Of a stretch of 64,000 bases of DNA, positions 45,983 through 62,524 are shown one piece after another (the first letter of the stretch is position 1; each line of letters starts with the position of its first letter). Position numbers and translations under genes: made by a program. Origin of the DNA: Bdellovibrio sp. (GTDB taxonomy: Bacteria > Bdellovibrionota > Bacteriovoracia > Bacteriovoracales > Bacteriovoracaceae); contig DZBG01000002.1 in assembly GCA_022729855.1 (NCBI GenBank), positions 1 to 64,000 on the forward strand, given 5' to 3'. The notes under the pieces were generated by a model. It ran no database searches, was not told the origin of the DNA, and was given only the letters and a program-made list of their open reading frames with translations.

Positions 45983-46579
45983 ATGAGCGGATTTAAAGTA
46001 AAAGACCATTTTTTTAATAAGGCCAAGCAAGATAATTATCTGGCCCGAAGTATCTATAAACTTGAAGAGATCGATGATCGCTTTAAGGTTTTACGTGCTG
46101 GTAATAAAGTAGTGGATTTTGGCTATTATCCAGGCTCATGGATTCAGTACACATCACAAAAAATCACAGATAAAGGCATTGTTGTCGGCATTGATATCCA
46201 AGAAGTGAATAAAAAACTCACTGGAATTAACAATGTTCGTATCTATCAGAAGAGTATTTTTGATGTGACTGATTTGACTCAGTTAGGCGTAGAAGGACAA
46301 TTTGATGTTGTACTCTCAGATATGGCCCCTAGCACAACAGGAATTAAGTCTGTTGATCAGGCCAGAAGTCTTGATTTAGTTGAATCCGTCTTTGGATTGC
46401 TCCCTCGTTTCCTCTCACCAGGCGGAAATTTCGTTATTAAAGTTTTTGAAAGCCAAGACGCTCAAAATTATTTAAAGGCCCAAAAAGGCCTATTTAGCGA
46501 ATTTCACTATTTACGTCCGAAATCTACTCGTTCGGTCAGTAAAGAATTTTTTGTCATCGGAAAGAACTTTAAGGCATAA
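45983..46579 (+). CDS. rlmE: 23S rRNA (uridine-2552-2'-O)-methyltransferase, RlmE/FtsJ family
   Basis: RlmE methylates the ribosomal A-loop. The 198-residue protein shows the K-D-K-E catalytic set: Lys in ARSIYKLEEID, Asp in LSDMAPSTTG, Lys in FVIKVFE, Glu in SVSKEFFVIG. The SAM loop reads DFGYYPGSWIQ rather than the usual DLGAAPGGW, a moderate divergence. It overlaps the next gene by one base (TAATG). Activity on U2552 is inferred from the family. Confidence 0.88.
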   Translation: MSGFKVKDHFFNKAKQDNYLARSIYKLEEIDDRFKVLRAGNKVVDFGYYPGSWIQYTSQKITDKGIVVGIDIQEVNKKLTGINNVRIYQKSIFDVTDLTQLGVEGQFDVVLSDMAPSTTGIKSVDQARSLDLVESVFGLLPRFLSPGGNFVIKVFESQDAQNYLKAQKGLFSEFHYLRPKSTRSVSKEFFVIGKNFKA

Positions 46580-47862
46580 TGTCCTTCATGGTTTTCAAGG
46601 ATTTGAATCGCGTACCTTTAAGGATTATCTTCACGATAAGCACAATACTGCTTAGTCAGTACTCGCACGCCCAATTTAATTTTCTAAAAGACAATGTTCT
46701 CATCAACCAATCACCACAAACTCCAGAAAGCCAAGTTTCACCAGAATCTAAAACTGAAATGGAAGAGTGGACTAAAATTATGGATCTGCACCAATCGTGG
46801 GATCAGCAGATTGAATATGATAGTTCAAAATATCAGGCCCATTATTCATTTAATGATAGCTTAGAAGATTTTATTAAAAGACAGATGAATCTTTACCATC
46901 CTGATTATAGTTCAGTGGTAGTGATTGATAATGAAACAGGTTTAGTTCTTGCAGCTGTTGATCACTCAAGAGTGAAAAAAGTTTTTGGACGAGATCTTGC
47001 TTTCTCTTCTACTCACCCTGCAGCCTCGGTGATTAAAGTGATTACCGCTTCTGACTTATTAGAGAATACACATATCAATACGCATACTGAGTTTGCTTTT
47101 GCTGGTAAATCTACCACTCTTTATCGTTCGCAATTAAAAGAGCCACCTTCAAAAAGAAAGCGCTGGATCAGAAGACTTGATCTTGATCGTGCTTTTGCCA
47201 CATCAAATAATGTGATTTTTGGAAGAACGGCGATTGAAAATCTTACTCCCCATGGACTGAAGAAAATGGCGGAGCGATTTGGATTTAATCGCAGGCTGGT
47301 TGATGGAGTTGATCTTCATCCCTCAGTTTTTCCTCTGGCCGAAGATCAGTATAATTTTGCAGAACTTGCTTCTGGATTTAATACAAGAACTTTGATGAGT
47401 CCTATTCATGGTGCTGTGATTGCTTCAATTGTGGCCAATGGGGGAGTTTTAAAATTTCCCATCGTGATTAAATCAGTTGAGGAGATCAGTGGAAAGAAAA
47501 CGATTTATCCACCTCTCAGACCTGATGAAAGAGTTCTTACACCACAAACAGCTGAGGATATGCGACATCTTTTTATGTCTACTGTAGCAAGTGGAACCGC
47601 ACGAAATTCATTCCGTCGTAGTAAACTTCTCCTCTCAAAATATGAAATTGGTGGAAAGACTGGAAGTATGACTGGTGGGGAGCCATTTGGAAAAAGAGAT
47701 TGGTTTGTCAGTTATGCCAAGTCTAGCGAAGACAGTAATGACAAGGGAATTTCAATTTGTGTCATGATCGTGAATCAAAAAAAGTGGTATGTGAAATCAC
47801 CGCTGGTTGCAAAAAATATTATTGAATACTATTACGACAATATATACCCTCAAAAAAAATAA
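46579..47862 (+). CDS. Penicillin-binding transpeptidase domain protein
   Basis: The 427-residue protein has an N-terminal hydrophobic signal (IIFTISTILLSQYSHA, then probable cleavage) and a periplasmic transpeptidase domain. The SVIK serine lies in HPAASVIKV, TSNN follows in FATSNNVIF, and the KTGS motif is in GGKTGSMTGG. There is no dimerisation or transglycosylase domain, so it is a stand-alone D,D-transpeptidase-like protein. Some such proteins have roles in cell-wall remodelling during predation or division; that is inference. It begins at the rlmE stop; ATG 46588 is an alternative. Confidence 0.85.
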   Translation: MSFMVFKDLNRVPLRIIFTISTILLSQYSHAQFNFLKDNVLINQSPQTPESQVSPESKTEMEEWTKIMDLHQSWDQQIEYDSSKYQAHYSFNDSLEDFIKRQMNLYHPDYSSVVVIDNETGLVLAAVDHSRVKKVFGRDLAFSSTHPAASVIKVITASDLLENTHINTHTEFAFAGKSTTLYRSQLKEPPSKRKRWIRRLDLDRAFATSNNVIFGRTAIENLTPHGLKKMAERFGFNRRLVDGVDLHPSVFPLAEDQYNFAELASGFNTRTLMSPIHGAVIASIVANGGVLKFPIVIKSVEEISGKKTIYPPLRPDERVLTPQTAEDMRHLFMSTVASGTARNSFRRSKLLLSKYEIGGKTGSMTGGEPFGKRDWFVSYAKSSEDSNDKGISICVMIVNQKKWYVKSPLVAKNIIEYYYDNIYPQKK

Positions 47863-47871
47863 GGATGTTGT

Positions 47872-48675
47872 ATGGAAAATACTACTGCCCCTGAAAACAA
47901 AGAAAATCCTGAAGTTATTGCTGTAGCAGATACGAATAAGCCAGTTCTTAGTAAAAAAGAAAAATTCATTAAGGAATTTAAGTCATTCACTTTTATCATC
48001 ATTGGTGTTTTGGCCTTTAGATCAGTTCTTTTTGAGCCCTTTAAAATCCCATCTGGATCAATGATTCCTACACTCCTTATTGGAGATTTTATTATTGTAA
48101 ATAAATTCTCTTACGGATTTAAAGTGCCATTCTCAGATTGGTTCTCTGATCCTACTTACGTGACTGGACCATCAAAGCCTGAGCGTGGTGATGTCATCGT
48201 TTTTAAATATCCAAAAAATCCAGATTTAAACTATATCAAGCGTGTTGTTGGACTTCCGGGTGACACAGTTGAAGTGATTGATAAAGTTGTTTACGTGAAC
48301 GGGTCTCCCATTGAGGCCAAAGAAACTGACGGAAAAAAAATCTTAGAAGATATGGATGAGAAGTATAAACAATACAATTTCAAATTTTTTGAAACTCATA
48401 CAGGGAAGGCAACTCATATTTCACAAATTGATGTGGATAATGTGTATAACGCCAATTTTTACAGAACAGTGATTCCACAGAATCAATATTTTGTAATGGG
48501 TGACAATAGAGATTTCTCTGCTGATTCACGTGTGTGGGGAACTGTTCCCTTTGGTAATATTAAAGGTAAGGCCATTGCGATTTGGTTCTCACTTTCAATC
48601 CCATGGCCATTTTCACAAGACGAACAAGAAGCATGGAGCTTCCGTCCTTGGAGAATTGGTAAAATCATCGATTAG
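47872..48675 (+). CDS. lepB: Signal peptidase I
   Basis: LepB removes signal peptides from exported proteins. The 267-residue protein has one membrane segment (FTFIIIGVLAFRSVLF), the catalytic serine in PSGSMIPTLLIGD and the lysine in YIKRVVGLPGD. The C-terminal box reads VMGDNRDFSADSRVWG. The N-terminal 30 residues are hydrophilic and the second membrane helix of E. coli LepB is absent. A bidirectional terminator follows. Confidence 0.95.
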   Translation: MENTTAPENKENPEVIAVADTNKPVLSKKEKFIKEFKSFTFIIIGVLAFRSVLFEPFKIPSGSMIPTLLIGDFIIVNKFSYGFKVPFSDWFSDPTYVTGPSKPERGDVIVFKYPKNPDLNYIKRVVGLPGDTVEVIDKVVYVNGSPIEAKETDGKKILEDMDEKYKQYNFKFFETHTGKATHISQIDVDNVYNANFYRTVIPQNQYFVMGDNRDFSADSRVWGTVPFGNIKGKAIAIWFSLSIPWPFSQDEQEAWSFRPWRIGKIID

Positions 48676-48726
48676 TAAAAAAAACTTCTCCCCCACCAAG
48701 GTCAATCAAAGGGGGAGAAGTCTTAT
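48676..48726. terminator. Bidirectional terminator between lepB and dps
   Basis: ACTTCTCCCCC (48685-48695) pairs with GGGGGAGAAGT (48712-48722) over 11 bp, with an A run before and T-rich bases after. It serves convergent lepB and dps. Confidence 0.85.
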
Positions 48727-48728
48727 AA

Positions 48729-49199
48729 CTACTTAGTCTCGTTAAGAGAACTTCGTAGCATCCAAGCCGTTTTTTCATGAAATTTCATTCTTCCAATTAA
48801 CATATCAGCACTTACTTCATCATGAAGCTCTTGAGCATGACTACAGATCTCACGACATCTTTTTGAGATGATTTCGTGTCCCTCAAGAAGTTGTTTAATC
48901 ATGTCATTGGTTTCAGGAACACCTTCTTCATCTTTAATTGAAGTCAGTTTTTTAAACTCAGTGAGGCTGGCAGGTGCGAAGAAATCTAGCGCTCTAATAC
49001 GTTCTGCTAGGTCATCCACAGCTAGGGTCATTTCATTGTATTGAGATTCAAACATGAGATGAAGAGCACTAAATCTTGGTGAAACTAAGTTCCAGTGAAA
49101 ATTTAATGTCTTTAAATTAAGTGTATAAGTGTCGGCCAAGATTGATGATAATCCTGTGGCGATGTCTTTTCTTGTTTTTTCATTTAAGCCGTTGTTCAT
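48729..49199 (-). CDS. dps: Dps family ferritin-like protein
   Basis: Dps dodecamers oxidise and store iron and protect DNA in starved or oxidised cells. From ATG 49199 (ribosome site AAGGAG) the protein has 156 residues. It has the ferroxidase ligands in TLNFHWNLVSPRFSALHLMFESQY (positions 35-58 approximately) and DDLAERIRALD. A longer start at 49217 lies upstream of the ribosome site and is rejected. The 120 bp upstream should hold its promoter; I found no clear OxyR or Fur site. Confidence 0.9.
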   Translation of the reverse strand: MNNGLNEKTRKDIATGLSSILADTYTLNLKTLNFHWNLVSPRFSALHLMFESQYNEMTLAVDDLAERIRALDFFAPASLTEFKKLTSIKDEEGVPETNDMIKQLLEGHEIISKRCREICSHAQELHDEVSADMLIGRMKFHEKTAWMLRSSLNETK

Positions 49200-49338
49200 A
49201 AAAACTCCTTGTTGCATTTAGTGCTTGCTGTTTAATAAGCAGAATTGATGCCAAAAGAAGATCTTGAATAATCGGTAAGTTAGAATGTCTTTTTAATGTG
49301 TTGATTGGGGCGAGTGTGGCATAATGCCTCTTTAAATT

Positions 49339-51711
49339 CTATTTTATCGTGATTTTAGTCTCACCATCATTTCCATTTTCAGGCACGGCCCACTGAAAAT
49401 CTTGTGAACGCTTGAGATAATCTCTAAGCCATTTTTTAAGAATTCCATCACCATGTCCATGAACGATATTTAAAAATGGAACATCTCCAGAGAGTAAATC
49501 TCCGAGAGCATTTTCAACAAGATTTTGAAAATCGGAAAGTCTCATTCCGCGAACATCGTATTCAAAATTTGTATTACTTGTTTTTTGAATGCTTACACGA
49601 ACTTGATTGTGCTGATTCTGCTGATGTCCTTTATTTTTCGTGAGTGTATTGAATGAAACAGGAAATTTCATCGCACCTTTTCCAATGATCACTTCTTTTT
49701 TTCGTTGATCAAGTCCAAGCACTGTAAAATCTTTTCTCAACTTTAGAGAGTAAACAATATCTCCCACTTTGAGTTCTTCAAATTGAACATGAATCTGCTC
49801 AATGACTTCAGGAGTGATTTCTTCATCCGATGAGAGTTCTCTCACTTTTTGTTGAAGTGTGACTTTCATATCATCTACACGACGTTTCTTATGAATGTTT
49901 CCAATCTTCGCTTCATCAACAAATTGATAGGCTTCAGCAAGAATCTTTTGAACTTCTGTTTTCGCCTTGGCCACTTCTTCTTGAAGCTTGAGTCTTAAAA
50001 TACTCTCCATTGAACCTTTTTGATTACGTAAATCAAGATTCAATTGGTGCTGTTCAGTTAAAAGGGAATCAAGCTCTACTTGTTTTTGAGATACCTTTTG
50101 AAGAAGAGTTTCATAGCTAATATTTTTTGAGTTTAAATACTTTAATGCTTCATCTGGAATGGATGAGACAATAGGATGCCCATTGGCAAGCAGTCTAAAA
50201 ATATCAAGGGCCATTGAACTTCCAGGTGTTCCCCAAATCATTTTATAACTGGGTTTAAGTCCAACAGGGTCAAAGCCAAGATGGGCTGAGATATACTGCT
50301 GATCTTGATGAACTAAAGTTTTAAACATCTGATGATGGGTTGAAACAACGATATGACATTTTCCACGTCTGTGAAGTTCATTAAAATAAGAGAGTGAGAG
50401 AGCAGAGGCTTCATCTGAAGAAGTAGAATTAAAAATCTCATCAATGAGGACAAGGTTACTTTCTCTTAAATGTTCAATCAGTGAAATATAGTTTTTAACT
50501 TCACCTGAGAACGATGAAAGTCCCGATGATAGATTTTGCAGGTCATTTCCAAAATAGAATAGTCCTTCATATGGAAAGAGTTCAGCATGGGTCGCGGGAA
50601 CAAAATGTCCGTGATAATAAAAAAGATAACAAAGGGTAATTGATTTTAGAAAGACGGTCTTTCCCCCAGTATTGGGACCAGAGATAACAATACCGTGATT
50701 GTTCTCAACACATTCCACATCATTTTTAACAGCATTCTTAATCAGTGGATGGAAGAGTTTTCTAATATTAAATCCGGGTGTCGTCTTAGTCTCAGGCATC
50801 GACAAGCCCCAAGATGTCGCAAGCTCTCCTTTAGCGATATAAAGTTCAGCATCCACCATTTGTTGATAGAGAAAACGCAAATCAGGAGCAACAAAAGCAA
50901 GCTGAGTCGAGAATCTAATACAGAGAGTATTGATAAGCTCGTCAAATTTATTCAAAAGCTCCATTCGTCTATTACAAAGTTCTCTGACTATTAAAGGTTC
51001 AACATAAAGAGTTTGTCCGCTATCAGAGCGCGAAACGATAATACCAAGATCCGAGCGATAGGAATCACTTCGAACAGGAACGACATAACGGTCATAAATC
51101 ACATCATAGCTATTGAACTGTAAAACTTTTTGATGATCGTTGTTATTCAACCATTCTTGGATTGAGCGACGTAGTCTTTCCTCTAGTTCTGCAATTCTTT
51201 TTTTGAGTTCAGAAATTTCTGGGTGGCGATCATAAATAAAAGTTCCATCAGGTTCTACTAAGTAGCGAAACTCTTTTAAGAATCTTCTCTGAAAACTCCC
51301 AAAATCTTGGGCCTTAATATTAGCGAGCTCAGTCAGGGCATTTGGCTTTAAATCTGTTTTAATGAGAATGAGAGCTTCAATAAGTTTGGCCAGATCGTTC
51401 AGCTCACGCAAATTGAGAACACCAGCTTTTTCAATAAACTGAATTTTAGCAAGAATGCTCTCATCTGGGACAATCTGCTTAAAAATCTGAATAATCCACT
51501 GCCTGTCCTCATCTGAGAAGAGAGTAAGATAAAGCTGGGTTTTAGCAATTTCAGAATTTAACTCGTTAATTCGGTTAAAGTAGACTGTTTGAGTCGCTCT
51601 ATTCTTATTTTCCTCGAAATAGAAATAAGATTGTATAGAATGAGTAAGGGCATCCCATTCAATGGGAGTCTGTAAACGTTGATTAAGGGACTCTAAAAGA
51701 TTAACTGACAT
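49339..51711 (-). CDS. mutS2: MutS2 ATPase/Smr protein
   Basis: MutS2 is a MutS relative without mismatch-binding domain I. In Bacillus subtilis it has been linked to splitting of collided ribosomes. The 790-residue protein has Walker A GPNTGGKTVFLKS, Walker B LVLIDEIFNST and STHHQMF. A coiled coil and a KOW-like module (LKVGDIVYSLKLRKDF) follow. The C-terminal Smr domain has DVRGMRLSDFQ and VHGHGDGILKKWL. Its ATG (51711-51709) overlaps the ATG of the divergent NFACT gene by two bases within CATG. Confidence 0.92.
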   Translation of the reverse strand: MSVNLLESLNQRLQTPIEWDALTHSIQSYFYFEENKNRATQTVYFNRINELNSEIAKTQLYLTLFSDEDRQWIIQIFKQIVPDESILAKIQFIEKAGVLNLRELNDLAKLIEALILIKTDLKPNALTELANIKAQDFGSFQRRFLKEFRYLVEPDGTFIYDRHPEISELKKRIAELEERLRRSIQEWLNNNDHQKVLQFNSYDVIYDRYVVPVRSDSYRSDLGIIVSRSDSGQTLYVEPLIVRELCNRRMELLNKFDELINTLCIRFSTQLAFVAPDLRFLYQQMVDAELYIAKGELATSWGLSMPETKTTPGFNIRKLFHPLIKNAVKNDVECVENNHGIVISGPNTGGKTVFLKSITLCYLFYYHGHFVPATHAELFPYEGLFYFGNDLQNLSSGLSSFSGEVKNYISLIEHLRESNLVLIDEIFNSTSSDEASALSLSYFNELHRRGKCHIVVSTHHQMFKTLVHQDQQYISAHLGFDPVGLKPSYKMIWGTPGSSMALDIFRLLANGHPIVSSIPDEALKYLNSKNISYETLLQKVSQKQVELDSLLTEQHQLNLDLRNQKGSMESILRLKLQEEVAKAKTEVQKILAEAYQFVDEAKIGNIHKKRRVDDMKVTLQQKVRELSSDEEITPEVIEQIHVQFEELKVGDIVYSLKLRKDFTVLGLDQRKKEVIIGKGAMKFPVSFNTLTKNKGHQQNQHNQVRVSIQKTSNTNFEYDVRGMRLSDFQNLVENALGDLLSGDVPFLNIVHGHGDGILKKWLRDYLKRSQDFQWAVPENGNDGETKITIK

Positions 51712-53056
51712 GATTCAATACTATCTTGATTTAAAAGATTCATTTAATAATTTGTCTGAGTATATCCAGTCTCATGGGCAAATTCAAAAAATTTATAGTA
51801 CCGCGTACTATATATGTTTTACTATCCGTCGCCCTGGGCAAACCATTGGTCTGTATTTCGGTCGAGGTGGCGGATATGAAGGTGTTTGGTTAGGGAAAAG
51901 TGCTCCACCGAGTGAAATTCGTCAACGAGATACATTCTTAGAATATTTTAGACGTTATCTTTCCTGGTGCACCATGCTTGATCTGAGACTTGATGAATCG
52001 GATCGAATTGTTGCTCTTGATTATCAAAAATATGGCGTAAAAAATTCTTTTTTATGGTTCTGGAAAGGTCGTAAACTTTATTTTGTTCATTACTATAAAG
52101 AGACACCAGAATCGCCCATGAAATTATTATTAAGTTGGCATGGAAAGGCCTTTATTCCAACGGAAGATACTCCAGACTTGTTTGCGCTTTTTGACGAGAT
52201 TGGAAGAACGACGGGGAATGAGCAAATACTTAGAAGCCAAAACTTAAAACCCATTGAAGATCTTATTGAGCAAGAACTTAATGAAGTTCGGAACCAAGAT
52301 CAAGGGCCTAAAAAAGTTAATTTCCTCCAACGAAAAAAAGAAAATATTGTCGCCGATTTGAATCGAGCTAAACAGTGGGAAAAACTCCATGAATTATTGG
52401 AGTTGCGCTCAGACTTAGATGGTCACCACGAATTAAAAGTGGCCGATCAGAAAATTAAATTCACATCGGGTCTTAACTCTTATGAGAGAAGAAACTTAGT
52501 TTTTGAAAAAATTAAAAAACTAAAAAAAGGTGAAAGAATTTTAGGCGAGAGACTTAAGCAAGTAGAAGAAGATTTATTAAGTAGCCCAGTTAAAGAAGTC
52601 CTTGAGTCAAAGCTCACGATGGTTAAGCCAGTGTGGGGAATAACAAAAGAAGCTGCAGCACAGAAACCTAAGACCACAAAAAAAGATTATAGAATATTTA
52701 AAATTGGTGAGACTCAGTTTGGAGTGGGACTCAATTCGCAAGGAAATGATGCTTTGAGATCTGAGTGGGGAAAAAAAGACGATTATTGGGTGCATTTAGA
52801 TCAAAAGAAAAGTGCCCACGTGATTATAAAACTTAATTCGAATTTACCAATTCAGTCGGACATTCTAGAGAAAGCAGCCACCTTTGTAGCAGAGTATTCC
52901 GACCATAAAGATCAGTGGATTCCCATTATCTACACCCAAGTGAAAAATTTGAAAGGGGTGACGGGGGCCGCAGGTATGGTAATATATAAAAAAGAAAAAC
53001 ATATCAGCTGTTTACGGCAGGACTTGTCGTCATTATTTAAGGAAGAGGAAGTATGA
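51710..53056 (+). CDS. NFACT-domain protein, RqcH-like ribosome quality control factor
   Basis: RqcH binds 50S subunits with stalled chains and adds C-terminal alanine tails. The 448-residue protein has an NFACT-N like start (IQSHGQIQKIYS, then DLRLDESDRIVALDYQ). The DR pair there matches the residues needed for tRNA recruitment in RqcH. A coiled-coil middle and an NFACT-R domain follow (DYRIFKIGETQFGVGLNS, DDYWVHLDQKKSAHVII, GVTGAAGMVIYKKEKHIS). It is shorter than the typical 550-600 residues, mainly in the middle. The start codon overlaps that of divergent mutS2, so each promoter must lie within the other gene. Confidence 0.72.
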   Translation: MIQYYLDLKDSFNNLSEYIQSHGQIQKIYSTAYYICFTIRRPGQTIGLYFGRGGGYEGVWLGKSAPPSEIRQRDTFLEYFRRYLSWCTMLDLRLDESDRIVALDYQKYGVKNSFLWFWKGRKLYFVHYYKETPESPMKLLLSWHGKAFIPTEDTPDLFALFDEIGRTTGNEQILRSQNLKPIEDLIEQELNEVRNQDQGPKKVNFLQRKKENIVADLNRAKQWEKLHELLELRSDLDGHHELKVADQKIKFTSGLNSYERRNLVFEKIKKLKKGERILGERLKQVEEDLLSSPVKEVLESKLTMVKPVWGITKEAAAQKPKTTKKDYRIFKIGETQFGVGLNSQGNDALRSEWGKKDDYWVHLDQKKSAHVIIKLNSNLPIQSDILEKAATFVAEYSDHKDQWIPIIYTQVKNLKGVTGAAGMVIYKKEKHISCLRQDLSSLFKEEEV

Positions 53057-53850
53057 GGATTATCACATTAATTGCTATCACACTTTATTCAATGAGTTTA
53101 TTTGCGCAAGATCCAATTTCTTATCTTAATGAGTTTGATAAAAAAGTTTACTCATTAAAAACTAAAGGTGTTCAAGATTTTATTGTTGATGTTGAAAGCA
53201 ATAAGCTGACTCAACAAATTAATGAACAAGGTATTTTTGGACGCGTGAACAAACTTACTTTTAGAGTTTATTGGACGGCCAATCCTGAACGTTTGGCCAT
53301 TGATGTTTTAGGACTTCCAGAAGGATTTCGTGAAGTAAAAGAAGAAATGAAATATGGAGTACTTCAACAACTAGAATTATTGCTCCCACAAACAATTGTA
53401 AAAAAGTTTACTGGTTATAAATTTACTCCGAATCCTGGAACAAAAGATCTGATTGCAAAAGATGTTTCAGGAATTGCTTCAATTCCTGTTTTTATTTTGA
53501 AATTTGATAATCAAGATAAGCTTCAAGAAATTGTAGGTAAAAAACCTGTCGGAACAATGAATACAGCTGTCTCATATGAGAAAGAAAGTTTTGCTGATGG
53601 TAAGTATGTTCTTAAAAATCAAACAACGACAGTGAATGAGAATGGACAGACTATAACTGTGAAAAAAGAGCTCAAATACGGTAACTCAAACGGCACGGGT
53701 GTTCTTTCAAGTGTGACAACAACTACACAAACACAAATAGAGAATTCAAAGGCCAAGCCTTTCATTCTCTCTGAGACGCTAAGCTTTGATAATTACAAGA
53801 TTAATACTGGCGGAGCCATGAAGTGGTTCTTGGGTTCTGAAGGCAAGTAA
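53053..53850 (+). CDS. Secreted protein, LolA-like fold possible
   Basis: The 265-residue protein has a signal peptide (IITLIAITLYSMSLFA, probable cleavage before QDP) and overlaps the NFACT gene by 4 nt (ATGA). The mature part alternates strands with a helix (YGVLQQLELLLPQTIV). It has a run of threonine-rich strands (KNQTTTVNENGQTITVKK) that suggests a curved beta sheet, as in LolA/outer-membrane sorting proteins. The homology is not secure. No lipobox cysteine is present, so it is soluble in the periplasm or secreted. Confidence 0.65.
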   Translation: MRIITLIAITLYSMSLFAQDPISYLNEFDKKVYSLKTKGVQDFIVDVESNKLTQQINEQGIFGRVNKLTFRVYWTANPERLAIDVLGLPEGFREVKEEMKYGVLQQLELLLPQTIVKKFTGYKFTPNPGTKDLIAKDVSGIASIPVFILKFDNQDKLQEIVGKKPVGTMNTAVSYEKESFADGKYVLKNQTTTVNENGQTITVKKELKYGNSNGTGVLSSVTTTTQTQIENSKAKPFILSETLSFDNYKINTGGAMKWFLGSEGK

Positions 53851-53900
53851 TTATTACAGGTTACGGCCTTAAAGGTTCAATAAAATGATACTTTTAGGGC

Positions 53901-56900
53901 ATGAGTACACACAGTTTTTCTAAACTATTCCAAGTAGTTGGATTGGCCCTTTTGGCCATGGTGATCTCGTGTACTGGCCAGTCTCCTGCAGATTTAAAAA
54001 ATAAAATTTCAAGCACAGAAGAAAAACTCTCATCAAGTTGTAATGATATCAAGCTTGATGGTGAGCTTCTCACAAAAACAAATATCCAGAAAATTTTTGA
54101 ATGCGGAACTTGGAGCAACCAGTATCCACATTTGTATACAGCTTTGAAATCGATCCCTGAAACTCAACTGAACTCATTATTGGCCCCCTACAATAAAGAA
54201 ATTTTTTACGATAGAAATAAACAGGCCAAATTATTAAATATCTTATCTTCCCATAATACTAAGGGGGACCTGAGTGAGCTTGGTAAGTTTTTAAATAAGT
54301 TATTGGGCGAATATGATGTTCTCTCTTCTCTGGATACTGTACTGGCAGGAAAAAACTTAAACTCGATTGATAGAACTTTAGTTTTTAATGTTTTTTCTAA
54401 AAACAGTGAGGTCAATACTCAGGCAGTAAAATCACTCACAGAAGCCATCAATTTTTACCAAGAAGAAAAAGAAGCGTGGAATCTAGTCTTTTGGAGTTTT
54501 AGCAGGGACTCGTTAATTGATAACGGAAAAATAATATTAAATGATCTCTCTACAATGGATGACAGTATATTCTGGAATTCAATCTCAACGGTCTTAAATA
54601 CAAAAAATGAATTTAATATTAAAGCTTGGGCCCAAACTTCACTCTCATCCCAAAGACCAGAAGCTCTCTTGCAAAACTTACTTACTAATCCTCAGTTAGC
54701 AGAAGACTCAACTGACTTGCTTACTATTTTAGAGAAGGGCCTTGTTTGTGATAATGCAGGATCGGTTTTTGATTTTAATATCAGATCAGAAAAAGAGCTC
54801 ATTTCAAAAATGATAAGCCTAGAGAAAGTTACTCGTGATGAGTATCAAGGAGTCCTTCTTGATTCCATGAGTAAGGTTATTGCTTTTAAAAACTTTTGTG
54901 GAAATAGTGAAAACAAACACTCAATCGATGTCTTTGAAAGGATTCTTGATACTTTAATGTTGGCCTCGGACAATGAACATGATTACAAATTTATCCAATC
55001 AGTTCAGAAAACTTTTCCTAAGGGAAGAGAATTTACCCTCCTTAATCTTTTAGCAAGTCCAATGTTTCAGTCTGTATTTAGTATTGTGAAAGATGTGGAC
55101 TCAGAGGGGAAATCAAACCTTCTAGCAACAAATGCTTTTAAAGTACTTTCAAGTCTTTCAGCAGAAACTCAAACCTTTCTCTCGGAAATTTTGGGATCAG
55201 TGAAGGATGAAGGTAAAAGTAAAACATGGTTCAATAATTGGGCGATCATGTGGCAAAGTCTAAGTGAAATGGAACAACATCACTTTGTGAATTTGTTAAG
55301 TATCGTTTTTGATAATGAAATTAAAGCTGCTAGTGTGGCAAATATTATTGAAAGTGTCGTTTTAGAATATCCTAAACTCACGGCAGAGATCTCATCTCAA
55401 TTTGAAGAACAAAGCTTTTATGAATCACTACGCTTGCACGTAAGTGTCCTCTCTGATCCTTTAGTAAGAGATGATTTGGCCCGGTTCCTTTCAAATGACG
55501 GGCTTATTGGCTTCTTGAAAGTCTTTACTCAGAATAGAGAACAAGTTTTTATAACAAAGAATCCGCTTAAAATTGAAAAAGTAGAAAATCAAAACAATCT
55601 TGTCCAAAGCAGCTCGCTAAGAGCTCAGTCTTTGCAAAGACTATGTTATGAAAAATTAAAAAGTGATTATCTTAAGAATCAAGACTACTACACAATAGTG
55701 AATACATTGCCTGCAGAATGCTTAAATTCGTTAGGGAATCAGGGGCTTGTTGGACAAATTTATCTTTGGATGAATAATCTGAACAATCAGTTTAAAGACG
55801 AACTCAAAAAAGATTTTCATACAGGAACTGGTATCTGGAATCCTGGAATGCTTCAGTTTATCTTTGCTTCAGCAGTAAGGGCCGATATTTATCTAGGAAG
55901 AAGTGAAGGAAAAGGTGTTAAAGCTTGGCTACCTGAAATTCAATCAGATTTAGAAAATCCAATTATTAAAGAAAGAGCAGAGCTTCTTTTACAGATATCT
56001 GCAAAAATGGCAAAAGAGACATCTGTTCTTGATCTCGTGACTAAAGAAATGCAGTCAGCCAGCACTGAGGCCATTAAGAAATATGGAAATTCAGCCTTGA
56101 AATTAATGGGTGGAAAAAGCTCACCTTATTTTAATTCTCGGCCACAAAAAATAAGCTGTAATGATTTAAATCAAAAATTAGGGGCGAATCCTTGTCTGAA
56201 AAAAGACGAGCTTAAAAAAGGATTAAGAGAACTTTTAAGAGTATTTAAAAGAAAGAATGAAAATGGTTCTTCAGTCATAAAATCTCTTCTTTCTGCAATT
56301 CATTCTAAGGGAGGAGTTGAGCTTCCACGTCCTAATAAGAAAACCGAAAAACACGTTATTACTTTGGAAGAAGTGATCCGCTTTTCACACGATCTAAATT
56401 CTGATCAAACTCGTAAAGCCTTTAATTATTATCAAGGAAAAGAAAAGAAAGAATATCAAGGAACTGCTGTTGAAAGGCTTGAAGTCATTATTCGAGACAT
56501 TAGTTTTTTAAACGATTTCTATGGGGCATATTTTAAAAACGAAGTGGCGCAGGCAGAAAATTATCGTGAAAAATTAGAAAGTTCGAACAAGTTAATGAAC
56601 TGGCTGCAAAAGTTTAGTGGTCCGTTTAGAAGTTTTGGTGTTTTTCCAAAGGAAACGAAATGGTTATTAAAGAATGCGAGAGAATCCTATCATTCACTTA
56701 TTGAAGTTGCGGATGAGTATAAGCAACCAGAGGGAAATACGAGAAACTATGCTGATTTTATTCAAAGTGTTTTGATGATTTCTTCTTCGACTTCTCCTCT
56801 GAAAACTCAGAGCTTTGGTGCTTTTAGAAAGCCTGATCCTGATCTTATTAAAAATCATAATGGTATCTTTATTACACAGATCACAGAACTCTCAGGTCTC

Positions 56901-57737
56901 AGACATCTTAGTGCATGGGTTGAGTCTCGATTTGGAAGTCGTTATGCCGAATTTTTAAAATCTGAAGATTTTCAGTCTATTAATAAGAATCTTTTAGCAA
57001 AAACAGATCTTGAAAAATTTGAGAATGCAGGAGTTTATTTATTAGATAAATACTTCGAAGAGGATTCAGACAACTTAGGAATTATGATTGATGATCTCGT
57101 GGATTGGCTTTATCAAGCGACACCTGCAGAAATAAACAGTTTTGAAAATTTGATAGGTAAAGTACTCACACTTATGGCCTCAGAAGGAATGAGTTCAGCA
57201 AATATTGAAACACTTGCTGAGTATATTGATTTAGTTGTTAAACATTGGCCTAAAATAAAAAGCGCTTTTGGAAAGGATATTAATTTTTCAGCTGCTCTAA
57301 ATTTAGGAAATGAAGTTTTTGACCAAGTTTTGGCCAATAAGAAAGAATCTTTTGAACTTATGCCTCTTATAATTAATTTCATAAATAAAATTCCGAAGGC
57401 CGAGAGAGAAGAGTTTTTCTCTCTTAATATGCTTCAAGATACTTCTGCTTTAGTGAAGCATTTTATTAAAAATGATTTAAAAACAAATTTTGATTGGACT
57501 GCAGCATTTAGTGAAATGTTTTTTAGCAATGATGCTGAGATAGCACCCTTTAAAGAAATGTTGAGCGCAATGATCCAGTACCCGCAAAAAGAGATAACTC
57601 TGAGTGATTATGTACTTTTTTTAAGTACTAAATACCAAGGAAGAAGCAGATATGAGCTATTAGTTGAAGAAATTTTCACTAATCAACGTCAAAAATTAGA
57701 AGAATTCCTCGAGTCAACTTTTCAGGCACTCAACTGA
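53901..57737 (+). CDS. Very large lipoprotein of unknown function
   Basis: The 1278-residue protein starts with a signal peptide ending MVISC, a lipobox with cysteine at about residue 24, so it should be lipid-anchored. Thereafter it is mostly helical, with no catalytic motif or obvious internal repeat. Cysteines are scattered, including ECGTW and ISCNDLN...NPCLK pairs, suitable for disulfides. The sequence up to the next gene has no other CDS. Size and helical character recall solenoid-like outer-membrane lipoproteins. Substrate and partner cannot be guessed. It has no recognisable ribosome site, and its start codon is 50 bp after the preceding gene. Confidence 0.85.
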   Translation: MSTHSFSKLFQVVGLALLAMVISCTGQSPADLKNKISSTEEKLSSSCNDIKLDGELLTKTNIQKIFECGTWSNQYPHLYTALKSIPETQLNSLLAPYNKEIFYDRNKQAKLLNILSSHNTKGDLSELGKFLNKLLGEYDVLSSLDTVLAGKNLNSIDRTLVFNVFSKNSEVNTQAVKSLTEAINFYQEEKEAWNLVFWSFSRDSLIDNGKIILNDLSTMDDSIFWNSISTVLNTKNEFNIKAWAQTSLSSQRPEALLQNLLTNPQLAEDSTDLLTILEKGLVCDNAGSVFDFNIRSEKELISKMISLEKVTRDEYQGVLLDSMSKVIAFKNFCGNSENKHSIDVFERILDTLMLASDNEHDYKFIQSVQKTFPKGREFTLLNLLASPMFQSVFSIVKDVDSEGKSNLLATNAFKVLSSLSAETQTFLSEILGSVKDEGKSKTWFNNWAIMWQSLSEMEQHHFVNLLSIVFDNEIKAASVANIIESVVLEYPKLTAEISSQFEEQSFYESLRLHVSVLSDPLVRDDLARFLSNDGLIGFLKVFTQNREQVFITKNPLKIEKVENQNNLVQSSSLRAQSLQRLCYEKLKSDYLKNQDYYTIVNTLPAECLNSLGNQGLVGQIYLWMNNLNNQFKDELKKDFHTGTGIWNPGMLQFIFASAVRADIYLGRSEGKGVKAWLPEIQSDLENPIIKERAELLLQISAKMAKETSVLDLVTKEMQSASTEAIKKYGNSALKLMGGKSSPYFNSRPQKISCNDLNQKLGANPCLKKDELKKGLRELLRVFKRKNENGSSVIKSLLSAIHSKGGVELPRPNKKTEKHVITLEEVIRFSHDLNSDQTRKAFNYYQGKEKKEYQGTAVERLEVIIRDISFLNDFYGAYFKNEVAQAENYREKLESSNKLMNWLQKFSGPFRSFGVFPKETKWLLKNARESYHSLIEVADEYKQPEGNTRNYADFIQSVLMISSSTSPLKTQSFGAFRKPDPDLIKNHNGIFITQITELSGLRHLSAWVESRFGSRYAEFLKSEDFQSINKNLLAKTDLEKFENAGVYLLDKYFEEDSDNLGIMIDDLVDWLYQATPAEINSFENLIGKVLTLMASEGMSSANIETLAEYIDLVVKHWPKIKSAFGKDINFSAALNLGNEVFDQVLANKKESFELMPLIINFINKIPKAEREEFFSLNMLQDTSALVKHFIKNDLKTNFDWTAAFSEMFFSNDAEIAPFKEMLSAMIQYPQKEITLSDYVLFLSTKYQGRSRYELLVEEIFTNQRQKLEEFLESTFQALN

Positions 57738-57781
57738 GAATCTGACTAAAATAATCACACGCATTTAATTAAGCTAATACA

Positions 57782-57809
57782 TTGAGACTCAATCTATTAC
57801 AGATATAAT
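57782..57809 (+). promoter_or_regulatory. Sigma-70-type promoter upstream of the RlmI-like gene
   Basis: TTGAGA (57782-57787) and TATAAT (57804-57809) are spaced by 16 bp, a strong match. The expected start near 57816 leaves about 18 nt before ATG 57834, enough for its AAGGA ribosome site. Confidence 0.75.
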
Positions 57810-57833
57810 ATTAAGACTGTAAGGATGAGAAAA

Positions 57834-59030
57834 ATGAAATTAGTAAACTTGAAGAAAAATGGTCTAAATCGTATAAAATCAGGTCACGATGAACTTCGGG
57901 CCGATGATATCGAAAATAGTATAAAGTCTTTTATTCCTGGTGAATGGATTGCACTGACTTCATTAGAGGGCCAGTGGCTGGCTTTTGTGAATCCTTTAGT
58001 TGTAGCACCCAGTAGTTCAATTACAGTCTTAAGGGATTTAGATAAAGCTGAGCTCACTCAAGACATAGACATAATTGCTAAAAAATATTTAAAAGAAAAA
58101 TTAGAAAAGTCATACTCTCGACGTAGTAAATTAAAAAACTATTTAGATGGGTGTCGATTAGTTTATGGAGCCTCAGATGATCTACCTGGGCTTCAAGTCG
58201 ACTTATTTACTAATGCCTGTTTTATTCAAATCAATACAGCGGGAATTGACACTTACAGAGAGTTTGTAAAAACAACTCTGGAAACTTTAACTTCTCGCCA
58301 ATGCTATTTTCTTGATAATCAAAAATATAGAGAAAAAGAATCTCTTCCCATCTTTGAAACCGAAGCCATTCCAAGTCTTGTTATCAAAGAAAATGGACTG
58401 GATCTTTATGTAAGGTCGGAAGTGCTTCAGAAAGTTGGATACTACTATGACCATAGAGAAAATCGCCGCGTTCTCATTGATTTGATAAATAGAATGAATC
58501 ACAAATTCACCTCTGGTGTGGATCTGTTTTGTTATGTCGGTTCTTGGGGCCTTCATGCTCTTAAAAGTGGCGTAGAGCATATGAGCTTTGTTGATCAAGG
58601 TGACTTTTCCATTGAAATTAAAAAGAATCTTGAATTGAATAAGTTTGACGACAGAGGAAGCTATACACGCGCTGATGTTTTTAAATATCTTGATCAATGT
58701 GTTGCAGAAAATACAAAGTTCGATCTTATTCTCTCTGATCCTCCTGCCTTTGCTAAAAGTGCTGCTCAAAAGAAAGGGGCTATTGAGGGATATCACAAGC
58801 TTCACAAAAAAGTTCTTAAAGTCGCAGCCCCATGGTCATTAATTGGATTTTCTTCGTGTACTCATTATGTCACTCAGGAAGAATTTCAAAGAACAATTAT
58901 TGAAGAAGCGGCTAAAGAAAAAAGAAATATTCACCTCGTTTATCAAGGCCTTCAAGGTTGGGATCATCCAGTTAAAACAACAATGGATAAAGCTAATTAT
59001 ATTAAAAGTTTTTTTTATATCGTGGAGTAA
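57834..59030 (+). CDS. RlmI-like class I rRNA cytosine-C5 methyltransferase
   Basis: The 398-residue protein has an N-terminal PUA-like region (residues 1-65) and a Rossmann methyltransferase domain. The SAM motif is GVDLFCYVGSWGLHAL, and the ILSDPPAFAKS and SSCTHYV motifs are characteristic of RlmI/YccW-type 23S rRNA m5C1962 enzymes. ATG 57834 is chosen because AAGGA is spaced 8 nt before it; ATG 57825 would overlap that site. The gene ends 3 bp before moxR, so it may form an operon with the Bat genes. Confidence 0.85.
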   Translation: MKLVNLKKNGLNRIKSGHDELRADDIENSIKSFIPGEWIALTSLEGQWLAFVNPLVVAPSSSITVLRDLDKAELTQDIDIIAKKYLKEKLEKSYSRRSKLKNYLDGCRLVYGASDDLPGLQVDLFTNACFIQINTAGIDTYREFVKTTLETLTSRQCYFLDNQKYREKESLPIFETEAIPSLVIKENGLDLYVRSEVLQKVGYYYDHRENRRVLIDLINRMNHKFTSGVDLFCYVGSWGLHALKSGVEHMSFVDQGDFSIEIKKNLELNKFDDRGSYTRADVFKYLDQCVAENTKFDLILSDPPAFAKSAAQKKGAIEGYHKLHKKVLKVAAPWSLIGFSSCTHYVTQEEFQRTIIEEAAKEKRNIHLVYQGLQGWDHPVKTTMDKANYIKSFFYIVE

Positions 59031-59033
59031 GTT

Positions 59034-59978
59034 ATGACATTGAATGAAAAAGTTAATCAAGTCTTAGAACAAGCAAAAAAATGTGTTTTCGGTCAGGATC
59101 AAATGATTGAATCAATCCTTGCGGCCCTTATTTGTGAAGGGCACCTTCTTATTGAAGGGATGCCGGGTCTTGGTAAGACCTTATCAGTCTCAATCATGAG
59201 TAAGTTATGTGATCTACAATTCCAAAGAGTTCAGTTCACACCAGATTTACTTCCTTCAGACTTGATTGGAACAATGATCTATAATCAACAGAAACAAGAA
59301 TTTACAACGAAATTTGGCCCAATATTTACTCAGCTAGTTCTAGCAGATGAGATCAACCGCTCCCCAGCCAAAGTACAGGCTGCACTACTTGAGGCCATGG
59401 CCGAAAAACAAGTGACGATCGGAGATAAAAGTCACAAATTACCAACTCCTTTTGTTGTCCTTGCGACTCAGAATCCTATTGAGCAAGAAGGGACCTATAG
59501 TTTACCAGAGGCACAGTTAGATCGTTTTATGATGAAAGTTCATGTGGATTATCCCGATTTTAATTCTGAAAAAAGCATTCTTGAATTAAAACCGCAACAG
59601 ATCGATCATCTTACTCCTGTTCTGACTCAAGACGATTTTAGACAATTGAAAGAAAAAGTTGAAAGTATATATATCGATGAAAAAATTAAGGACATGATTG
59701 TTCGTATTGTTCATGCCACAAGACCTCAAAGCCAATATTTTGTTAAAAAATATGACGGTGCTATTACTGCGGGAGCTTCTCCTCGTGCTTCAATTTGGTT
59801 ATACAAAATTGCCAAGTATAAGGCCTTCCTAGAAGGGAAAGATTTTGTGACTCCTGAACACTTGTTAAGTATTGTTCCTAATGTGCTTGCTCACAGAGTA
59901 ATAATCTCTTATGAAGCACAAATTGATAAATTGAACCCAAGAAATTTAGTGAGCGCGATCGCCTCTAGCGTAATTTAA
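59034..59978 (+). CDS. MoxR family AAA+ ATPase
   Basis: MoxR ATPases act as chaperones that assemble or activate VWA proteins, often in envelope stress or Bat operons. The 314-residue protein has Walker A EGMPGLGKT (about residues 40-48), Walker B VLADEINR and the ATQNPIEQEGTY sensor region. The arginine finger region SPRASIWLYKIAK completes the pattern. It opens the five-gene Bat-type group, with the DUF58 gene beginning 2 bp downstream. Confidence 0.93.
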   Translation: MTLNEKVNQVLEQAKKCVFGQDQMIESILAALICEGHLLIEGMPGLGKTLSVSIMSKLCDLQFQRVQFTPDLLPSDLIGTMIYNQQKQEFTTKFGPIFTQLVLADEINRSPAKVQAALLEAMAEKQVTIGDKSHKLPTPFVVLATQNPIEQEGTYSLPEAQLDRFMMKVHVDYPDFNSEKSILELKPQQIDHLTPVLTQDDFRQLKEKVESIYIDEKIKDMIVRIVHATRPQSQYFVKKYDGAITAGASPRASIWLYKIAKYKAFLEGKDFVTPEHLLSIVPNVLAHRVIISYEAQIDKLNPRNLVSAIASSVI

Positions 59979-59980
59979 TT

Positions 59981-60820
59981 ATGAACTTAAAAGAAATTCA
60001 AAAAGTTGTTGGGATGATTCAGTCCCACGTCTTTAGAAATTCAAACTCATATACTTCAGGGATTTTAAAATCTCATTTTAGAGGTAGTGGACTTCAGTTT
60101 AAAGAGCATCAGGTTTATGTTCCTGGTGATGATGTTCGATTTATTGACTGGAAACTATCGGCGAAGTCTTCTCAGGCCTTTGTGAAAACTTTTGAAGAAG
60201 AGAGAAATGTAGAAATTTTTATTTGTGTTGATCTCACTCCGACACTCTATTACGGGCACAACAGAATTTCAAAGCTTCAAGGCATGGTTGAAACTGTGGC
60301 CCTCTTTTATCTTTTAGCTAAAGAAACTCAAGACTTAGTAAGAGTAGTTATCTGGGGAGCAGGAGAAGAAATTATTCTTCCTGCCAAAAAAGGGCATGAA
60401 GGATTAGTCTTTTTTGTTGCTCACTTAGAAAGATTGGGGATTTTGAAAGAAGATGGAACTCCAAATTTTGACATGCAATTTAAACTACAACCTGTAAGTG
60501 AAAAAAAGAAATTTGTCCGGTTAAAAAGTTTACTCGCCAGAAAAAAAGAAGTTATTTACCTCGGTGACTTATCAGCGATTGAAGACATAGAAGAGTTCTC
60601 AAAGCTCTTTTCTTTTAAGAATATGAATTGTTTTAGATTTTATTCACCAGTAGATAAATTAAGTAAATCTCCATTTTTTATGAAAATAAAAACAGGAACA
60701 GGAAAAGTTGTCGTTGGCGATATCCTTGTGAATAAAGAAGAGTTACTTAAAAAACAACGGTATAAAGAAATTGGCGTCCACGAACGTTATCTAGAAAAAG
60801 TTGTAAGAGAGCTAATGTGA
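59981..60820 (+). CDS. DUF58 protein
   Basis: The 279-residue cytosolic protein has the DUF58 signature SGLQFKEHQVYVPGDDVRFI and IDWKLSAKSSQ, followed by a VWA-like core with ICVDLTPTLYYG. These proteins usually sit between MoxR and VWA genes and are thought to join them in one complex. The C-terminal part has a basic patch. It overlaps the next gene by 4 nt (GTGA). Confidence 0.88.
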   Translation: MNLKEIQKVVGMIQSHVFRNSNSYTSGILKSHFRGSGLQFKEHQVYVPGDDVRFIDWKLSAKSSQAFVKTFEEERNVEIFICVDLTPTLYYGHNRISKLQGMVETVALFYLLAKETQDLVRVVIWGAGEEIILPAKKGHEGLVFFVAHLERLGILKEDGTPNFDMQFKLQPVSEKKKFVRLKSLLARKKEVIYLGDLSAIEDIEEFSKLFSFKNMNCFRFYSPVDKLSKSPFFMKIKTGTGKVVVGDILVNKEELLKKQRYKEIGVHERYLEKVVRELM

Positions 60821-61563
60821 AATTAATAGTCATCACCTTATCCATTCTCATTTCCCTATCGTGCTTTGCAAATATTGAAATGCGAGCGAATCTGCCTTCT
60901 GAAGTCACAGCGGGAGAAATGATTTCAGTAAAAGCTGAAATTACAAAGATTGAAGGCAATACAAAGATCTCTCATCTTGTTGGTCAAACATTAGATGACT
61001 CAATCTATATAAATAAAATTGGCCTTATTGAGAGAAATGCAGAATTTCCTAACGGTTTTATTGATCTATCCATCATTTTTTTGAAGGAAGTTAAGACTAT
61101 TCCACTTATAAGCTTAGACAACTCAATAAAGCTTTATATTCCTAATGTAAAAGTTAGGCCAGTGGCAGAAGTTAAGGACTATCTTCTTATCGACTGGTCA
61201 CTTCCTTTTAAATTACCTTGGTGGGTTTATCTCGTAATTATGAGTGTGTTAGCGGTTGGGCTCATTTTTTTAAATAAGTATCCTAAAATGAAAGAACGAA
61301 AACTTAAGCTAAAGGAAAAGAAGGAGCTTTGGGCCCAACTTTTAGGGGCGAGTACTGAGGAAGAAATCTTAAAAATTTGGTATGCACGAAACATCTATTT
61401 TGAACAATTCCCAGACTTAGTAAGTACTTTTAGAATTTGGGAAAATAAGGTTTATCCTTATTTTTTTAAAAAAGACCAAACGGTTGAAGATAAGACTCAA
61501 ATAAGAAATTTATATCTAAAATTTGTAAGTGAATTACCAACAAGGAGTGATTATGGAGTATAA
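60817..61563 (+). CDS. Secreted/membrane protein of the Bat group
   Basis: From GTG 60817 the 248-residue protein has a signal peptide (IVITLSILISLSCFA) and a periplasmic beta-rich region of about 105 residues. One membrane helix follows (WWVYLVIMSVLAVGLIFL), then a cytoplasmic basic tail with helices. This topology and position match the small DUF4381-like or BatD-like component found between DUF58 and BatA genes. I cannot assign the exact family. It overlaps batA by 11 nt. Confidence 0.7.
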   Translation: MKLIVITLSILISLSCFANIEMRANLPSEVTAGEMISVKAEITKIEGNTKISHLVGQTLDDSIYINKIGLIERNAEFPNGFIDLSIIFLKEVKTIPLISLDNSIKLYIPNVKVRPVAEVKDYLLIDWSLPFKLPWWVYLVIMSVLAVGLIFLNKYPKMKERKLKLKEKKELWAQLLGASTEEEILKIWYARNIYFEQFPDLVSTFRIWENKVYPYFFKKDQTVEDKTQIRNLYLKFVSELPTRSDYGV

Positions 61564-62524
61564 ATCTCCGCTTCTTGCTCTTTTAGGGATTGTCACTTTT
61601 ATCTTCTGGTCTTTAGAGTACTGGAAAGTATTTCAGACGGCCTTAGTGACTTTACCTAAAGCACATAGATCAGCTTTTAAGATTTCATTTCGCGGGCTTC
61701 TTTTTGCGATGGGTACACTCGCTTTTGGGTTTATAAGTTATTCGCTCACTCAGCCAAGATTACCTCACAAGTTTTCACCTTCATCAATTGAAGTGAATGA
61801 TATTGTTCTGTGTATAGATGTTTCTCGATCAATGCTAGCGGAAGATCTAAAGCCTAATCGTTTAGAAGTGGCTAAAGAGAAAATAAGACAATTTGCTGCC
61901 TTGAGGCCTACAGATAGAATCTCTGTTGTGATCTTTTCAGAAAAAGTTTTAACACTTCTCCCACTTACTACTGATCCGACTTTGGTTGATCAGGTCTTAT
62001 CTGATATCTCTATTGGATACTTGGGGAGTGGAACAAATATTGGGGATGCTTTAGGTCTTTCTGTAGCAAGAGCAGTAAATAGTGAAACAAAAAACAAAGT
62101 TATTGTTCTGCTAACTGATGGTGTGGCCAATGTGGGAAATCTCACTCCCATGCAGGCCGCAGAAGAAGCCAAAAAGCATAATATTAAGGTTTACACGATT
62201 GGTCTTGGAACTGATGGAGATGCTAAGATTCCAACCGGAAACTCTTTTTTTGGTAAGCAGTATCAATTAATTCCTGGTGGCTCAATCGATTATAAAGTTC
62301 TGAAAGATATTTCAAATCTTACTGGTGGGAAATTTTACCCGGCCAAAAGTGAGAAGGCCTTACAGGAAATTCTTACTGATATTCAAAGTTTAGAAAAAAC
62401 AGAAATTAAAGTTCAAAACCAAATTGTTTATGATGAAAAATATTTTGACTACCTTCTTTATGGAGTGGCCTTGCTTGTCTTAGTTGAAATCCTTCGACGC
62501 CTCGTTGTGAAGGAGGTTGCATGA
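61553..62524 (+). CDS. VWA-domain membrane protein, BatA-like
   Basis: The 323-residue protein has two N-terminal membrane helices and a VWA domain at about residues 80-270. The MIDAS motifs are DVSRSM, a Thr (PLTTDP) and LLTDGVANVG. A C-terminal membrane segment (FDYLLYGVALLVLVEIL) completes it. ATG 61553 follows AAGGAG. BatA-type proteins form complexes with MoxR and BatB in aerotolerance-type operons, with the VWA domain in the periplasm. The stop overlaps the next gene by 4 nt (ATGA). Confidence 0.88.
   Translation: MEYKSPLLALLGIVTFIFWSLEYWKVFQTALVTLPKAHRSAFKISFRGLLFAMGTLAFGFISYSLTQPRLPHKFSPSSIEVNDIVLCIDVSRSMLAEDLKPNRLEVAKEKIRQFAALRPTDRISVVIFSEKVLTLLPLTTDPTLVDQVLSDISIGYLGSGTNIGDALGLSVARAVNSETKNKVIVLLTDGVANVGNLTPMQAAEEAKKHNIKVYTIGLGTDGDAKIPTGNSFFGKQYQLIPGGSIDYKVLKDISNLTGGKFYPAKSEKALQEILTDIQSLEKTEIKVQNQIVYDEKYFDYLLYGVALLVLVEILRRLVVKEVA

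Follow-up and report, generated by a model that had tools for sequence, protein, structure and literature searches.

The locus considered here raises the question of why two genes should begin within the same four base pairs on opposite strands, and whether such an arrangement reflects a shared task in ribosome rescue. The window, meaning the whole stretch of 64,000 nucleotides that was analysed (positions 1 to 64,000 of contig DZBG01000002.1, assembly GCA_022729855.1, Bdellovibrio sp.), carries a mutS2 gene and a gene for an RqcH-like NFACT protein. An earlier note, made from the sequence alone, had described the two as head to head, with both ATGs in one CATG and no intergenic space, and had proposed reciprocal control and a dedicated rescue module. 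Our reading, to which we give a probability of roughly 0.6, is that the two genes form a family-wide ribosome-rescue pair fused at the start codons, with leaderless, crossed promoters and mutually constrained expression.

The geometry of the junction is as the note described it. The mutS2 ATG on the minus strand is the complement of the CAT at 51709-51711 and the NFACT ATG lies at 51710-51712, such that the coding sequences, oriented head to head, overlap by 2 bp within 51709-51712. In-frame stop codons are found 6 nt upstream in the mutS2 frame and 30 nt upstream in the NFACT frame, with no start codon in between, and both ATG assignments are thus forced. The genes upstream of mutS2 point away from it, and the nearest plus-strand gene before the NFACT gene is lepB, some 3 kb off. 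As neither gene has a close upstream neighbor on its own strand, the proximal promoter of each must be inside the partner gene, which bears out what had been claimed for the promoters.

The arrangement is real and deeply conserved. The NFACT gene was found in 33 of 36 same-family members, each a different genus. Related loci were also searched with a 9-row alignment, and named records, including Bacteriovorax and Halobacteriovorax, place the lineage in the Bacteriovoracaceae/Halobacteriovoraceae. Among 67 distinct mutS2-NFACT pairs, 41 are joined by CATG (2-bp overlap) and 16 by CATATG (0 bp), while most of the remainder lie at no more than 10 bp, the outliers being one gap of 51 bp, one overlap of 26 bp and one pair split by 1.7 kb. 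The junction is kept despite protein identities across the pairs of mostly 30-40%, and divergence of the NFACT protein reaches 25-40% identity. Elsewhere in these loci, 26 further divergent gene pairs have a median gap of 104 bp, and none of them falls within ±4 bp. The junction geometry is thus beyond chance, and the possibility that the pairing is unique to this genome, which the earlier note had allowed for, is excluded. The 0-bp form, CATATG, is the one used by the clade nearest to the window (L066-L083, L123).

Beyond the family, mutS2 and NFACT are divergent neighbors in three more families of the phylum, 6 to 95 bp apart. In a fourth (f7; L159, L160, L161, L162), the genes stand in tandem on the same strand in the order NFACT-mutS2, with the mutS2 start 12-17 bp past the NFACT stop or overlapping it. 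In further families of the phylum, including the Bdellovibrio-like one, mutS2 and NFACT are unlinked. Outside the phylum, the comparison covered 21 Firmicutes rqcH-type loci, together with the location of MutS2 in three of the same genomes, and no mutS2 was found in the flanks of the 21 loci (at most 8 kb, less at contig ends). The genes are separated in two genomes (G017 and G022), and neither gene was found in G034 at the thresholds used. In G007, G026 and G176, the NFACT gene is kept with no MutS2-level match, while G059 retains the CATG although its two genes are shortened or diverged. Where mutS2 is not nearby or is degenerate (L057/G007, L053/G026, L167/G059, L168/G176), the NFACT protein has diverged; it is 395 residues long in G059, and in G026 about 60 residues of low-complexity sequence are inserted. 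The NFACT match of L058 (G013) has one in-frame TGA, a possible sign of gene decay or of faulty assembly.

Table 1 Coordinates in the window of the two genes, their junction and the domains and motifs discussed in the text.
Feature	Position	Strand	Basis or remark
mutS2 (RqcU-type ribosome splitter, predicted)	49339..51711	-	790 residues; TIGR01069 and PDB matches to B. subtilis MutS2
Compact RqcH-like NFACT gene	51710..53056	+	448 residues; PF05670, hhalign, AlphaFold2, Foldseek
CATG, overlapping start codons common to both genes	51709..51712	both	kept in 41/67 distinct pairs
TAGTAT, -10-like	51718..51723	-	6 nt upstream of mutS2 ATG, within NFACT codons 3-5
AAGATT, degenerate -10-like	51697..51702	+	7 nt upstream of NFACT ATG, within mutS2 codons 4-5
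MutS2 Walker A, GPNTGGKT, residues 345-352	50656..50679	-	little or no variation among 25 family members
MutS2 Smr domain, residues 719-790, D719-x-R721 and H751-G-H-G	49342..49557	-	Pfam Smr, 45.9 bits
NFACT-N domain, about residues 24-112	51779..52045	+	hhalign; profile match to RqcH and PavA/FBPS N-terminal domains
D98-R99	52001..52006	+	aligned with B. subtilis RqcH D97-R98; kept in 33/40 members
NFACT-R domain, residues 339-419, DxWxH and distal His	52724..52966	+	Pfam PF05670

The minus-strand protein matches the full-length mutS2 model TIGR01069 over residues 12-788 with 441.4 bits (curated cut-off 400), and its closest PDB structures are those of B. subtilis MutS2 on ribosomes (8qpp/7qv3, E 2e-58). 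In Pfam, only MutS_V and Smr exceed the cut-off; the mismatch-recognition and connector domains (MutS I, II) are absent, and similarity to MutS1 is confined to residues 259-478. As for the KOW domain, which in splitters of the MutS2/RqcU type contacts uS10, a KOW-like stretch aligns at about residues 647-693 in the PDB comparison, with no Pfam KOW match. Walker A and Walker B, the latter being D424-E425 further downstream, are intact, with G345, N347, G349, G350, K351, D424 and E425 invariant across 25 MutS2 family members. The Smr motif reads D719-V-R721 followed by H751-G-H-G, with D719 kept in 22/25, R721 in 23/25 and H751 in 24/25. The D-x-R class is described as splitting ribosomes without cleaving mRNA (PMC10897456). 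The genome also encodes SmpB and, elsewhere, a separate true MutS1 (793 bits). A ribosome role, which the earlier note had favored over DNA repair, is the better reading of this MutS2, as it fits the intact Walker motifs, the D-x-R Smr domain, the separate MutS1 and the pairing with an RqcH-type gene in several families and orientations.

For the plus-strand protein, searches of Pfam and the PDB with the single sequence detect NFACT-R alone (PF05670, NFACT-R_1, 46.9 bits vs a cut-off of 29.8), and in a relative Pfam NFACT_N stays under its cut-off (26.7 vs 31). Profile comparison by hhalign of the family with 16 Firmicutes RqcH proteins gives a probability of 99.8 and an E-value of 6.5e-29 over residues 24-441, and B. 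subtilis RqcH is first among the PDB chains in a profile search with the NFACT family. The AlphaFold2 model (mean predicted local distance difference test score of 90.8) has RqcH, NEMF and Rqc2 as top Foldseek matches; the E-values are significant, and the flexible linkage of the domains keeps the global TM-scores low. The D-R pair corresponding to D98-R99, 97DR98, selects tRNA-Ala in B. subtilis RqcH (PMC8373112), and W360, H362 and H370 of the NFACT-R core are invariant in the family alignment. The protein is about 120 residues shorter than B. subtilis RqcH. In its model, the coiled coil or middle (M) region is short, consisting of helices 182-231 and 257-290 around a hairpin at 241-250. The helix-hairpin-helix (HhH) domain expected between NFACT-N and the coiled coil is absent, as model residues 130-182 hold one short helix (157-164), and the corresponding stretch of RqcH is mostly gap in the hhalign alignment. 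Searches for a short S4 protein resembling RqcP were negative in the genome itself and in 39 complete clade genomes, although a diverged partner could escape them. We call the protein RqcH-like and not a canonical RqcH, in view of the missing HhH domain, the short middle region and the lack of a detected RqcP. In the genome, the search concerned loci on five contigs (C8, C9, C157, C104, C139; L177-L182), and no RqcP/Hsp15-like short S4 protein emerged there or in the clade, although the RqcH-like gene is common; the single short S4 protein that was inspected (69 residues, L182 1456-1665) looks YbcJ-like by eye.

How the two genes are expressed from such a junction should be considered at the family level as well as in the window. 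Shine-Dalgarno (SD)-like motifs precede 37-56% of the genes in these loci, as compared with 23% for NFACT, which equals background, and 4% for mutS2; neither gene thus has an SD signal. An SD for NFACT within mutS2 leucine codons was considered and rejected, given this background frequency. The sequence TANNNT about 12 nt before the start is a mark of leaderless bacterial genes (PMC3160421). Of 37 CATG junctions, 17 have TANNNT at a spacing of 7 nt from NFACT, where the family consensus is TANNTT; on the mutS2 side, 16 have it at a spacing of 6 and 7 at a spacing of 8. All ten distinct CATATG junctions tested have it 8 nt before mutS2, 2 nt beyond the main spacing of CATG junctions, and in two relatives a TATAAT without mismatch stands 8 nt from the mutS2 ATG. 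At the same antisense positions of 497 other genes, TANNNT occurs in 1.4-5%. When a sigma-70 score is computed for every spacing from 2 to 90 nt, NFACT scores highest at 7 (z 6.8) and mutS2 at 6 (z 8.6) and 8 (z 6.9), although these z values, like the binomial ones, are inflated because the sequences share ancestry. The signature of leaderless genes led by TA, i.e., TANNNT with no SD, is thus seen at the family level and for mutS2 of the window, and is weak for NFACT of the window. In place of the shared -10 of a bidirectional promoter, there is a -10-like element of its own on either side of the CATG.

Several points weigh against this reading and should be kept in mind. For the promoters, the NFACT-side -10 is weak in this window (AAGATT), and with it the leaderless signature of the window NFACT gene. 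In addition to the inflation by shared ancestry, a synonymous-codon test gave z ~2 at the key spacings, and amino-acid conservation could explain part of the signal; because this null gave weak support, the promoter argument rests on the antisense positions of other genes. Usable transcription-start maps of Bdellovibrio or Bacteriovorax were not found in the literature. For the NFACT protein, canonical tailing is uncertain, as the HhH domain and RqcP are missing. For the pairing, the two genes belong to a wider block (45983-62524) whose gene order is conserved through the family and which comprises RlmE, a penicillin-binding protein (PBP), LepB, MutS2/NFACT, a secreted protein, MoxR, DUF58 and VWA, and thus includes genes unrelated to rescue. 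The conserved adjacency is therefore in part plain synteny, which tempers the functional inference without removing it. Of the module that had been proposed as dedicated to rescue, the conserved pairing stands, while the wider block, the missing HhH domain and the missing RqcP weaken so strict a description. Within this block, the start codon of the predicted secreted protein (265 residues) and the NFACT stop codon overlap (ATGA, 53053-53056), and a gene for the secreted protein comes after NFACT in 37 of 54 family loci.

That the pair is conserved merely as a by-product of synteny was rejected, since the fused pair outlasts the block in several loci: it persists in four (L096, L099, L100, L104) with no other block gene nearby and in three more (L045, L055, L060) with one flank rearranged. 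A related explanation is possible, although we consider it clearly less probable than our own, namely, that the overlap arose once and became inseparable, as the first codons of each gene hold the start signals of the other, with no regulatory value. Shared descent, the position of the pair among unrelated genes of conserved order and the difficulty of breaking a two-way, signal-bearing overlap are all consistent with such a frozen accident. Yet the seven loci just listed keep the fused pair where the block is broken on one or both sides, other families present other geometries, including a tandem one, and separation can occur, as it did in G017 and G022. Unlikely, too, is an arrangement of leadered, antisense transcripts, in which promoters 40-70 bp inside the opposite gene would produce complementary 5' ends covering both starts, with control by RNA pairing or RNase III instead of polymerase exclusion. 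A generic scan of the window does find promoter-like sites at 51614-51641 (+) and 51759-51787 (-), and the family scores show secondary peaks at spacings of 16-38 (mutS2) and 23-50 (NFACT). These deeper window sites do not, however, exceed shuffles (2 found vs 1.3 ± 1.4 expected), a further point on which the window gives the promoter argument no help; the strongest conserved peaks are at leaderless spacing, and leadered mRNAs should carry the SD that is absent here.

As for the proteins, the NFACT protein could be another 50S- or tRNA-binding factor that works with MutS2, such as a release or anti-reassociation factor, and not a tail-adder. We regard this as a tentative alternative, about as credible as the frozen accident. 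It would account for the absent HhH domain, for the lack of an RqcP-type S4 protein in the 39 complete clade genomes and for the strong divergence of the family. On the other hand, D98-R99 is kept in most members, the NFACT-R core residues are invariant, and the closest matches by structure and by profile are without exception RqcH, NEMF and Rqc2. It is very improbable that MutS2 acts in DNA transactions (recombination control) with an unrelated neighbor. MutS2 has historically been annotated as an endonuclease, but the D-x-R Smr class, the RqcH-like neighbor in several families and the separate MutS1 all argue otherwise.

Under the reading we prefer, that of a fused ribosome-rescue pair, MutS2 would split collided ribosomes, and the NFACT protein would take the part of RqcH, acting on the 50S-nascent-chain complex that the split leaves behind. 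Functional pairing of the two is likely. Ala-tailing in B. subtilis depends on MutS2 (PMC10897456), and MutS2 is found in 97% of genomes with RqcH (PMC11633108); the literature searched does not mention mutS2-rqcH adjacency, and gene-level support there consists of co-occurrence. Promoter statistics suggest that both mRNAs are leaderless or nearly so, beginning at the fused start codons, with the promoter of each gene probably inside the first ~12 codons of the other and the two facing each other. Facing polymerases would be unable to share the site, and each transcript would cross the other promoter; expression of splitter and tailer would thus be mutually constrained and probably low. Mutual exclusion of the promoters is plausible, and the reciprocal control that the earlier note had proposed is inferred from the promoter-like signals. 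At E. coli bidirectional promoters, opposed polymerases are mutually exclusive and their competition lowers noise (PMC12825309). More speculatively, the locus might encode a minimal bacterial ribosome-associated quality control (RQC) system, composed of an RqcH lacking HhH, with no RqcP and with crossed leaderless promoters, in which exclusion fixes the splitter-to-tailer ratio and leaderless initiation keeps both genes translatable during collisions that disturb normal initiation; we consider this doubtful as a complete account. The arrangement nonetheless suggests that RQC may operate without HhH and RqcP, and a start site fused across dozens of genera of a predatory lineage offers independent support for the ribosome role of MutS2.

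The closest known system is that of MutS2/RqcU and RqcH in B. subtilis (PMC10897456, PMC8373112, PMC11317155), with which the window shares, for MutS2, an intact ABC ATPase and the D-x-R Smr domain and, for RqcH, NFACT-N with its DR motif, a middle region and NFACT-R. It differs in the shorter NFACT protein with neither HhH nor a detected RqcP, and in gene order: here the genes are adjacent with overlapping start codons, whereas the Firmicutes rqcH-type loci (n=21) had no mutS2 in the flanks covered (at most 8 kb). SmrB and KOW-SMR, mRNA-cleaving collision factors (PMC10897456), likewise aim an Smr domain at collided ribosomes, but theirs is the catalytic D-x-H and that of the window MutS2 is D-x-R. 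The junction resembles E. coli bidirectional promoters (PMC12825309) in that opposed polymerases would meet at one site and could not bind together. There, however, the -10 is shared, the starts lie 10, 18 or 23 bp apart and transcription runs outward, whereas the mutS2-NFACT junctions present two facing -10-like elements inside coding sequence, with predicted starts that overlap by 2 bp or abut. With TA-led leaderless genes (PMC3160421), finally, the junction shares TANNNT about 12 nt before the start and no SD, and it differs from them as a natural case in which both of two divergent genes appear to be leaderless at one point.

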